From Mariniblastus sp. (GTDB lineage Bacteria > Planctomycetota > Planctomycetia > Pirellulales > Pirellulaceae), in the NCBI GenBank assembly GCA_022447605.1, contig JAKVBG010000001.1, positions 150,062-214,061 of the forward strand: DNA of 64,000 bases, written 5' to 3'. Positions within the stretch are counted from its first letter, which is position 1. Each line of letters begins with the position of its first letter. A program made the translations under genes and the position numbers. Shown here piece by piece: positions 8,389-14,774 of the stretch. The notes beneath the pieces were generated by a model. It was not told the origin of the DNA and ran no database searches. It worked only from the letters and a program-made list of their open reading frames with translations.

Positions 8389-11300
8389 ATGAATAATTCA
8401 TTACCGTATCGATTGGTCCTGCCCCTGGGCCTGCTGGCAGCCCTGTGCCTGCTGAAAACTGGCTGCCAACCTCAGCAATCCTCCCGGCCTGCGGCTGAAT
8501 CGAAAGAAAAAGAAGCCGTTGTCGAGCAAATTGTCGACAGCGAAGAACTCCTGCTGGCACTCAATACGGAACTCGGTGCTTTGAAGCGAAGCGCCATGAA
8601 CCTGGCCATCCCGGACCCTTTGGGTCGAATGCTTTTTGCCAGCCAGGTGGAATTTTCACCTTGGGATTTTGCGACTGCCTCGCCTGGAAAACCAGGCGAA
8701 GTGGACCGTGACCAGTTGACCATCTGGCCGACCGAATTGGCGAAAGTTGCTTTTTTTGATCATGCCAAGTTCTACATGATTCGGGGGCATTTTGACGAGA
8801 ACGACCCAAATCGGTACCTCAGCGACGTTGGTTTTTATGGCCTCGCCAGAACCGAGAACCGAAAATGGCTGGCAGCCAAGGCCTTGTGCAAAGTGGGCTG
8901 GATCCGCAATGACTCCGACGATTCCTGGCAAATTGACAACTGGAAGACTACCGACTTCTCGGCAAGCCAGTCGGATCAATTGATGTTCCGCGACACACTG
9001 GAAGGGCTGGTTGACGACCCGACGTTGGCCGAACTTTTACGAACGTCCCAGCACATGGAATTTGCCGAACAGATTTTCCAATCAGGTGACCTGCGACTGA
9101 ACGGTTTCGAATCACTCGCCGAGGATTTCAAGGAACCGAACCTGGAGCAGTATTTCAGGATCCAACAGGCGGGACAACACCCAGGTGTGGCGATTGTCGA
9201 CTTTGACAACGACGGCTGGGATGACCTCTACCTTTGCGACGAGTGGCGCCCCAATCGCCTGTTAAAAAATATCAACGGAAAAAAACTGGTCGACGTGGCC
9301 GCCGAGGTCGGCCTGGATCTCGGGCCGACCACCAGCGCGATCTTTGCCGACTTCGACAACGACGGTGACCAGGACGCCTTGGTCGGCTGTTTCTTCCAAC
9401 CCTGCAAGTTGATGTTCAATGAACAGGGAAAATATGTTGACCGGACCGGTGAATACATTTCGGTCGATCTGCCGAAATTGACGACTTCCATTTCGGCAGC
9501 GGATTACAACAACGACGGCCTGCTGGACATCTATATTTCTACCTACGGCTTTCCCGCCGGTCGTAAATCGAGTCGCAGCCGTTACTGGACCGCAGACCTG
9601 CTCAATCGCTCCGAGGCGACTGAAATGCAACTCAACCAGGAGGGAACTCACCGCATCCTCAACGCGTTGGGGCCCCCCAACCTTTTGCTGATGAACACCG
9701 GCAATGGAGGATTTCGCAGGGCCCCGGAAAACGATGACGTCCAACTGCACCACAATACGTTTCAGTCGACCTGGTGCGATTACGATATGGACGGCGATCC
9801 GGACCTGTACGTCTGCAATGATTTTGCACCCGACTTCCTGTTGAGAAACGACGGGCCAGACGGGTTTACCGATGTGACGCTGGAAGCAGGCGGTGAGGAC
9901 ATGCTGGGCTTCGGCATGGGGGCCTGTTGGGGCGACTACGACCTGGATGGTGATTTTGACCTGTACGTCTCCAACATGTACAGCAAGGCTGGCAAGCGGA
10001 TCACCAAGCAAATTGACGGGCTGGATGAACGATTCTTTCGCATGGCGACCGGCAACCGGCTGTTTGCCAATGAACAGGACAAGTTCAAGTTGGTCGTTGA
10101 CAAATCGGGAGAGGGTTCGGCCGCCGGCAAAGCGGGCTGGTCCTGGGGCGGGCAGTTTGGTGATTTCAACAACGACGGCCGGCAGGATCTGTATGTCTGT
10201 TCCGGTTTTTTCACGGCCCCCGACAAGTATGCCTCGACCGTTGATTTGTGATCCGACTTTTGGCGCATGGTCGTGCGCACCGACAAACAACTGGGAGAAG
10301 GGTTTTCCGAATCTACGAAATGGGACGCCGATGCCTCGGAGTTGTACAACTTCATCGAGGAGGTCGAAGTCAATGGTGAAACACAGCGGATTGTCAGCTC
10401 ACAGAGCGGGCACGAGCGAAATCACCTGTTCATGAACCAGGAAGACCACGAACTGAAGGATGTCTCACTGGTCTCTGGCCTCGATTCGATCGCCGACGGC
10501 CGGGCCAATGCGATCTGGGATTTCGATCGGGATGGCTTCCAGGATATCGTGCTGGTCAACGCCAATAACCCGCTGCTGCAGCTGTTTCACAACCAGATGA
10601 AATCAGCTGCCCCAAGCCGTTCGAACTTCATCGCCGTCCAGTTGACAGGTGGCAACCAGACCGGGCAGCCTTCCGACGAGTGGAGTAACCGGGACGGGAT
10701 TGGCGCGGTGGTCAGCGTCAAGGCAGGGGATACCGTACTGGTTCGAGAGGCCCGCGCCGGCGAGGGATTTGCTTCACAAAACAGCAAGGTGCTGTTGGTC
10801 GGGATCGGTGATCGGGCCGATGCCGAGGTGAGTGTCCAGTGGCCATCGGGCAAACGACTCGATTACGGCACCGTGCCAGCCGGTCAACTGGCTCATTGTT
10901 ACGAGGACAAGTCAGCCACCTTCAACCTGTCGGGTATTGAACTGTCTCCCTATACCGCTGTGGAGCCCTTCGTGGAAACTGACCGGCTGGTCGACTACGG
11001 AAACTTTCAACTGTCGGATCACAACAGCGCCTCTTTGGACAATGCCCGCTTGATCCTGTACGTCAGCATGGCAACCTGGTGCCCCAACTGCAAAAAGAAC
11101 CAACCGTTCGTGGCCATGCTGCGGGAAAAATTCGGTGATCAGATCGATCTCGTCGGGGTGCCCGTCGATCCGGAAGACACGGCTGCCAAGTTGGCGGATT
11201 ACCGCCAAAAATACCGACCGGCCTATGAGCTCCTCGACCCGGTCACGGATGCCGAGCGGTCAAAGCTCGAAACACTGGTCACGTCGATCTCCCAGCAAGG

Positions 11301-11421
11301 CGCCTTGCCCAGCACGCTGATCACCGATCGACAAGGCCGGGTACTGGATGCCGTGGGCGGAATACCGAGCAGTTCGACGGTTGCCAGGCTATTGGACAAT
11401 CTGCCAAAGCCGAACCCATAA
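8389..11421 (+). CDS. FG-GAP/VCBS repeat, ASPIC/UnbV-domain lipoprotein with C-terminal thioredoxin-like domain; candidate selenoprotein with in-frame TGA at 10249-10251
   Basis: Lipobox LLKTGCQ; repeats such as DFDNDGWDDLYLC, DYNNDGLLDIYIS and DFNNDGRQDLYVC; UnbV-like NRDGIGAVVSVKAG...SVQWPSGKRLDY; thioredoxin-like YVSMATWCPNCKKNQP. ORFs 8389..10251 and 10267..11421 share frame 1 and read through as ...KYASTVDL-[TGA]-SDFWRMVVRTDKQ.... Confidence 0.82.
10249..10284 (+). promoter_or_regulatory. Putative bacterial SECIS element (UGA plus downstream hairpin)
   Basis: TGA (10249-10251); stem GCGCAT (10263-10268) with GTGCGC (10273-10278), six pairs including one U-G; GGUC tetraloop at 10269-10272, 18-21 nt after the UGA. 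Confidence 0.72.
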
Positions 11422-13553: not shown

Positions 13554-14774
13554 TTACTTCGGGCTCTTTTGCGGAAGTCGATTGAATAGCACGTAGGTCC
13601 CACTCTTGCCTGCTACCGCGATGTCGACCCGACCATCCTGATCGAGATCGCCCGTCCGAATTTGCAGCCCCGTACCGACCGTTCCCCGATCGATGACCCG
13701 TTTCTGGAACTGCTTCTTTTCCGGCAACCACTGGTAATAAAACAGGCAGGGGGGCTCTTTGCCGCCCGGGTCATTACCATTGTGGGCAAAAACCCGTTTG
13801 CCCGTGATCAACTCCGGCTGACCATCCCCGTCCAAATCGGCCAGGTGCAGCGCGTGGGGCTGGGAAAAATCCTGGTCGATCATTCGTTGATTCCACTGGG
13901 TCGTGCCATCTTCCAGAGGTGGCAATTGCTCCCACAACAAAAGACCGTAATCGTGCCCCTTACCGATAATGATGTCTGGCCGCCCGTCGCCGGTCCAATC
14001 ACGCACCAGAATCGGCAGGCTGGCGTGAACTTGCCAATCGGCATGAAACGGCCAGTCGGGTTGGATCGTTTTCCCATTCGTCCCGCCCGGGTTTTCATAC
14101 CATCCGCTACCGACCAGGATGTCGGTGTCCCCATCGCCATCGAGGTCGCCGGCGCCCATCCCGTGTGAATTCCCTTTCTCGTTGATGCGAACCCGTTTCA
14201 TCTGGTAAGTCGTTTCGCCTGAACCTGTTGGCGACTCGAATTTCCAGACATTCATCGGGGCGCCTTTGCCCCAGGTATTGACCAGCCATTCCGCCCGGCC
14301 GTCCTGGTCGAGATCGACCATCAACTGGCCCTCGTTATGGGTATCCCCTGTATCGACCAGTAGTTTCTGCTCCCACATCAGACCGAGATTCAACCCGTCA
14401 GCACCCGGGTTGCGGTACCAGTAGACCTCGCTCGGTACAAACGAACCTGCCACGACATCGATCCACCCGTCGCGGTCGACGTCCATGGCATAGTCACCAT
14501 TGCTCTCGACGTACCCGTTCCAATCCGCAATCTGTCGGACAGGACGGGGGGTAAACTGCGGCGCAGCGTACCAGTTCCGACCAGCCACCACGTCCATTTT
14601 CCCGTCACCATTAAAATCGGCCAGGTCGATACCCTCGTTGGCATCCACCGTCAGTTGACGGATCTCCCACTTCGCCGGTTGACCCGAAACGGGGGAAGCC
14701 AGGCAACCGACGACCAGCAGCCACGTTAAGAGATAGATCTTTCGCATCAATCCTGTCCTCGCGTCGCGCCGCAA
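13554..14774 (-). CDS. FG-GAP/VCBS repeat secreted protein
   Basis: Signal peptide; repeated DFNGDGKMDVV, DVDRDGWIDVV, DLDQDGRAEWLV, DLDGDGDTDILVG, DLDQDGRVDIAV motifs. Confidence 0.88.
   Translation of the reverse strand: MRRDARTGLMRKIYLLTWLLVVGCLASPVSGQPAKWEIRQLTVDANEGIDLADFNGDGKMDVVAGRNWYAAPQFTPRPVRQIADWNGYVESNGDYAMDVDRDGWIDVVAGSFVPSEVYWYRNPGADGLNLGLMWEQKLLVDTGDTHNEGQLMVDLDQDGRAEWLVNTWGKGAPMNVWKFESPTGSGETTYQMKRVRINEKGNSHGMGAGDLDGDGDTDILVGSGWYENPGGTNGKTIQPDWPFHADWQVHASLPILVRDWTGDGRPDIIIGKGHDYGLLLWEQLPPLEDGTTQWNQRMIDQDFSQPHALHLADLDGDGQPELITGKRVFAHNGNDPGGKEPPCLFYYQWLPEKKQFQKRVIDRGTVGTGLQIRTGDLDQDGRVDIAVAGKSGTYVLFNRLPQKSPK

Follow-up and report, generated by a model that had tools for sequence, protein, structure and literature searches.

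Does the in-frame TGA at positions 10249-10251 terminate a protein, or does it encode selenocysteine (Sec) within a longer one? The question arises in the window analysed here, a stretch of 64,000 nt from Mariniblastus sp. (Planctomycetota). Inspection of the sequence alone had pointed to two ORFs, 8389-10251 and 10267-11421, lying in the same frame and separated by one TGA plus five sense codons, and this arrangement is correct: the open frame 8389-11421 is interrupted only by this TGA, 389 further codons remain in an intact frame behind it, and GC3 is alike before and after. Read through, the gene bears the following features.

8389-11421, plus strand: whole putative selenoprotein gene, 1,010 codons with one UGA read through, ending in TAA
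8389-8466, plus strand: N-terminal hydrophobic stretch, putative export signal, perhaps of a lipoprotein (Cys26; non-canonical lipobox), from sequence reading
8635-8994, plus strand: N-terminal alpha/beta domain, residues 83-202, possibly NTF2/SnoaL-like (tentative; AlphaFold2 secondary structure and Foldseek)
9184-10593, plus strand: FG-GAP beta-propeller, residues 266-735 (Pfam PF13517 1.4e-29, PF01839 4.3e-16; Foldseek CRTAC1 9etn)
10249-10251, plus strand: UGA codon, almost certainly for selenocysteine, residue 621 (TGA at 120 of 139 distinct homologous sites)
10263-10278, plus strand: bacterial SECIS-like hairpin GCGCAU-GGUC-GUGCGC, loop 10269-10272
10696-10890, plus strand: UnbV/ASPIC domain, residues 770-834 (Pfam PF07593 2.9e-13)
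11026-11343, plus strand: TlpA/ResA-like thioredoxin domain, residues 880-985 (ResA profile, Foldseek Trx/TlpA, Pfam AhpC-TSA)
11080-11091, plus strand: thioredoxin active site CPNC (Cys898, Cys901), proposed partner of Sec621 (sequence; co-occurrence with Sec)

Architecture of the read-through protein

Both the FG-GAP repeats and the UnbV_ASPIC domain exceed the Pfam cut-offs, here as in paralogs and homologs, and a profile search of the structure database matched murine CRTAC1 (9etn) as well as ResA thioredoxins. The latter match assigns the C-terminal domain (PDB ResA profile, 6e-9); Pfam AhpC-TSA scores 3e-5 there, which is under its curated cut-off. An AlphaFold2 model calculated with 30 read-through homologs as input reached a pLDDT of 87.3 and a pTM of 0.88, and in this prediction residue 621 is the first residue of a helix (621-630). 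Foldseek placed CRTAC1 9etn at the top (E 1.1e-26, TM by target 0.68), matched thioredoxin/TlpA folds too and returned LinA and 3b8l, of the right length, for the N-terminal domain. The hydrophobic N-terminus suggests, judged by its sequence, that the protein is exported. Two orthologs (L009, L010) align to the gene over nearly its full length with one stop each, and in the alignment of homologs D619, U621, S622, W625 and R626 are invariant. A second FG-GAP-like protein with the repeats DFNGDG and DLDGDG is encoded just downstream at 13554-14774 on the minus strand; it has no in-frame TGA.

The TGA is conserved in two phyla

A genome scan found 21 loci. All orthologs covering the site (L009-L024) have TGA at exactly the same column, both in two Mariniblastus genomes (77-81% identity) and in Verrucomicrobia/Akkermansiaceae (35-39% identity), and L015 carries, in addition, a second and more distant paralog with TGA. 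The host genome contains five more paralogs with one in-frame TGA each, all at the homologous site, which makes six family genes in total. A homolog alignment at this column had been proposed beforehand as a check on Sec; in our profile-based analysis of 139 distinct homologous sites UGA dominates (U 120, C 5, E 4, A 3, T 3, R 2, D 1, L 1, with the T and L rows poorly aligned).

Among 392 Planctomycetota genomes 95 gave a match at E 1e-30 or better, with a single TGA in most of the matches listed. The Verrucomicrobia order around L015 has a match in 27 of 142 genomes, and a phylum-wide sample of Verrucomicrobiota in 2 of 289, one of these with TGA. Single genomes contain up to 13 (G392) and 17 (G396) UGA genes, and five genomes from other groups yielded no UGA copy in a search of low power. 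The finding, a probable selenoprotein family of propeller proteins in Planctomycetota and Verrucomicrobiota, is larger than the sequence-only reading had claimed. As the family is patchy in Verrucomicrobiota and concentrated in one order, transfer between the two phyla is plausible.

A hairpin follows the UGA

A six-pair hairpin with a GGUC loop at +18 to +21 after the UGA had been described at this site and is present as claimed. The further argument, that UGA, spacing, loop and stem coincide beyond chance, is weak in the single sequence, whose hairpin does not stand out from chance folding (z 0.04 over 40 nt against dinucleotide shuffles, -1.2 over 28 nt); comparatively, the coincidence is far beyond chance. 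An Rfam scan of 10150-10400 gave no match. Since the single-sequence fold is not significant, the case for the hairpin must be comparative, and because the hairpin overlaps the conserved codons W625 R626 x V V it was tested against synonymous-codon shuffles that preserve the protein. A stem was counted if it had at least 5 pairs (G-U as half), a loop of 3-6 nt and a G among the first two loop bases.

By this measure a stem with a G-bearing loop is found at 90 of the 94 distinct UGA sites, where 18.2 were expected (z 19.7), the loop lying ∼20 nt downstream of the UGA. This agrees with a bacterial SECIS, for which a hairpin immediately following the UGA is expected, carrying G at loop base one or two about 16-37 nt away. 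For the segment +9 to +41 the folding energy gives a mean z of -1.37 at UGA sites, compared with -0.08 in 271 control windows taken from these genes. The stem is present at 115 of 120 UGA sites but in only 2 of 15 non-UGA homologs, taken from the column analysis as sequences that keep the xxxW motif but have a different residue at the column (Fisher 1.9e-12); these hairpin counts treat related sequences as separate, so that p-values are nominal. The loop position is nearly fixed, while the stem takes at least three registers, with loops of 4, 5 or 3 nt, and shows paired double changes, for example five pair types at 17-27. Taken together, sequence comparison supports selection on the hairpin as RNA, and most non-UGA homologs have lost it. 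At 81 of 94 sites an A directly follows the UGA, the Ser codon being mostly AGY; context may thus influence how Sec is decoded.

The host encodes the selenocysteine machinery

A search of the host genome for selA, selB, selD and tRNA-Sec had also been suggested. All four are present over their cut-offs, with 68.7 bits for tRNA-Sec (cut-off 47; ARAGORN also calls a tRNA-SeC), 377 bits for SelB, 573 bits for SelA and 271 bits for SelD; they sit on other contigs than the window, in an assembly with a contamination estimate of 4.2%. Of 52 Planctomycetota genomes that carry a UGA copy, 50 have full SelB, against 0 of 17 same-class genomes without the family (Fisher 2.9e-14); within the window's class the counts are 4 of 4 versus 0 of 17 (Fisher 1.7e-4), and in the Verrucomicrobia order 18 of 20 versus 6 of 30 (Fisher 1.3e-6), all of these tests being made on counts of related sequences uncorrected for phylogeny. 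Four genomes, G268 and G061 in Planctomycetota and G758 and G775 in the Verrucomicrobia order, have UGA copies but no SelB over the cut-off; these are probably incomplete assemblies. One selD match (L041, G000:C160:164144-165052) lies inside an open frame of 733 aa, about twice the size of SelD, and this length suggests a fusion protein. SelD fused to an N-terminal oxidoreductase is a known arrangement.

With a UGA conserved in two phyla, a selected hairpin, SelABD and tRNA-Sec in the host and Cys in five homologs, the TGA at 10249-10251 almost certainly codes for selenocysteine. The proposal of Sec insertion is thereby upheld, and none of the contrary outcomes named in advance occurred; the qualification is that non-UGA homologs mostly carry D, E, A or R.

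Selenocysteine and its putative redox partner

We compared 82 complete Sec proteins. A C-terminal CxxC occurs in 62 of these, none of them with a Cys at U+2, whereas it is absent from all 12 proteins with UxC (Fisher 1.5e-9, likewise uncorrected for phylogeny). When only proteins with a recognisable thioredoxin domain are considered, the CxxC is intact in 49 of 50 with Sec versus 0 of 5 with D, E or A, and inspection of L219 and L224 suggests the same decay. The U-x-C arrangement includes a subgroup (L198-L203) with the motif PDG-U-x-C-[VLI]-W and a hairpin of different sequence, e.g. GGCUGUGG...CAGCC; its copies that could be read to their end have no thioredoxin CxxC. Neither L215, with an adjacent C-U, nor L213, with a Cys at U+5, has a thioredoxin CxxC. 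Six Sec proteins (L044, L086, L176-L179) are exceptions, having neither a local Cys nor a CxxC, and another partner must therefore serve them. The simplest reading of these sequence patterns is that a resolving thiol, either local or from the fused thioredoxin domain, cooperates with Sec.

Cys occupies the Sec column in five sequences (L103, L108, L186-L188) that belong to one clade, four of them with a second Cys at +5; the clade reads C-T/S-x-x-W-C/S-H-D instead of U-S-x-x-W-R, possibly forming a CxxxxC pair. Its hosts G232, G709 and G712 have no SelB over the cut-off, while G076 and G699 do. Instead of Cys, most other non-UGA homologs have D, E, A or R, which is unusual for selenoproteins. 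On a quick tree, midpoint-rooted for drawing only, the Sec label changes 6 times and the other residues need 5 changes, with Cys falling into a single clade; this fits an ancestral Sec with repeated loss, the rooting not being established.

We propose that SelB and tRNA-Sec decode the UGA as selenocysteine, directed by the hairpin at 10263-10278, and that the product is probably an exported CRTAC1-like protein composed of an FG-GAP propeller, a UnbV domain and a C-terminal TlpA/ResA-like thioredoxin domain. Sec would be a redox residue that a substrate oxidises. Its reduction would fall to the CxxC of the fused thioredoxin domain or, where a member lacks this domain, usually to a nearby Cys, mostly as U-x-C. 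Loss of Sec or of the resolving thiol would relax selection on the other. Sec decoding, the family and the partner Cys are strongly inferred from sequence comparison; the direction of the reaction, the cellular location and the substrate are inferred only.

Alternative explanations

A lone in-frame stop in a draft assembly is usually an error, and a nonsense mutation or a pseudogene remnant would look similar. The same TGA at the same column of 120 distinct sites, in many assemblies and two phyla, and the long frame of similar GC3 behind it leave such an origin practically no probability; the comparative data refute it. It is also highly improbable that the UGA is a true stop followed by a restart, yielding two proteins. 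An ATG does lie five codons past the stop, and the second ORF takes its Met from it, but this Met at 10267 is unconserved (Thr, Gln, Ala or Ser in homologs), so that a restart is unsupported; moreover, one frame spans the junction with S622, W625 and R626 invariant, and the non-UGA homologs are continuous. Improbable, too, is a UGA read as a standard amino acid or reassigned, with the hairpin merely promoting readthrough. The mostly non-Cys residues of the non-UGA homologs speak for it, as they imply that the column does not always need a Sec or Cys side chain. Yet TGA terminates 13 of the 36 other long ORFs of the window and hence is not globally reassigned, the hairpin is of the bacterial SECIS type and bears a G in its loop, SelB and the family co-occur, one clade has Cys at the column, and the association of the residue with UxC or CxxC is exclusive.

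A different objection accepts Sec insertion but regards the residue as non-catalytic: a selenium store, a metal ligand or a selenium-responsive switch between a short and a long product. It would agree with the large paralog numbers, with the replacements by D, E, A or R and with the fact that most members have no local Cys, but we consider it unlikely; the association with UxC or with an intact thioredoxin CxxC, and the decay of the CxxC upon Sec loss, argue against it. We are highly confident in the joint reading of Sec decoding via SelB, tRNA-Sec and the hairpin in a probably exported CRTAC1-like redox protein whose family spans two phyla.

Relation to known selenoproteins

The family is apparently unlisted. 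No FG-GAP, UnbV or CRTAC1 entry occurs among the 87 prokaryotic selenoprotein families listed in 2022 (PMC9312934) or in the 2026 inventory of 119 families (PMC13188914), which includes families from Haft & Gwadz 2023 and Haft & Tolstoy 2025; NCBIfam 20.0 has no matching family-level model. Our literature search returned no paper joining selenoprotein with UnbV or selenocysteine with FG-GAP, and the reviews found in it do not mention Planctomycetota and Verrucomicrobiota for selenoproteins. A genome paper on two Planctomycetes reports selenoproteins (PMC4807772), and its candidates may include this family. The homology step of deep-Sep may drop selenoproteins without Cys homologs, and glycine reductase selenoprotein A (GrdA) was named there as the only earlier selenoprotein of this kind (PMC12013277); a Cys-homolog requirement of this type may explain why the FG-GAP/UnbV family was overlooked. 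GrdA shares with it the scarcity or absence of Cys homologs, although the proteins are unrelated and a small Cys clade exists here. We think it likely that a large family was missed by surveys demanding Cys, that its propeller Sec is served by a fused thioredoxin, and that loss of Sec usually leads to D, E, A or R with decay of the active site.

This would add to the known selenoproteins a large family with a fold not found in the two prokaryotic inventories, and would expose a blind spot: families in which Asp, Glu, Ala or Arg takes the place of Sec can escape methods relying on Cys homologs. Standard gene calling, which takes UGA as a stop, splits each family gene in two. With 5 to 17 copies per genome the selenium demand of these bacteria may have been underestimated, and in some Verrucomicrobia (13-17 copies in one genome) the family, if our reading is true, would be a major part of the selenoproteome. 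For the FG-GAP/UnbV (CRTAC1) fold, whose function is obscure, it also offers a redox hypothesis that can be tested.

With selenoproteins of the FdhF/FdhA type the locus has in common the UGA, a short hairpin just downstream with a G-bearing loop ∼20 nt away, and SelABCD; however, no family scan gave a protein match to FdhA, and Sec lies here in an FG-GAP propeller protein, not in a molybdopterin enzyme. CRTAC1/ASPIC-UnbV proteins (PF13517, PF07593; murine 9etn) share the propeller fold and the FG-GAP and UnbV domains. We found no description of a CRTAC1-type selenoprotein; here a Sec that starts a helix in the propeller is combined with a fused C-terminal thioredoxin domain. Thioredoxin-fold selenoproteins (UGC-containing TlpA family protein, Prx-like, UxC thioredoxin-like Sec.2; PMC13188914, PMC9312934) have the Sec-Cys redox pairing in common, and a TlpA/ResA-like domain is present here as well. 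Unlike in those proteins, Sec lies in the propeller, ∼277 residues upstream of the thioredoxin CxxC.
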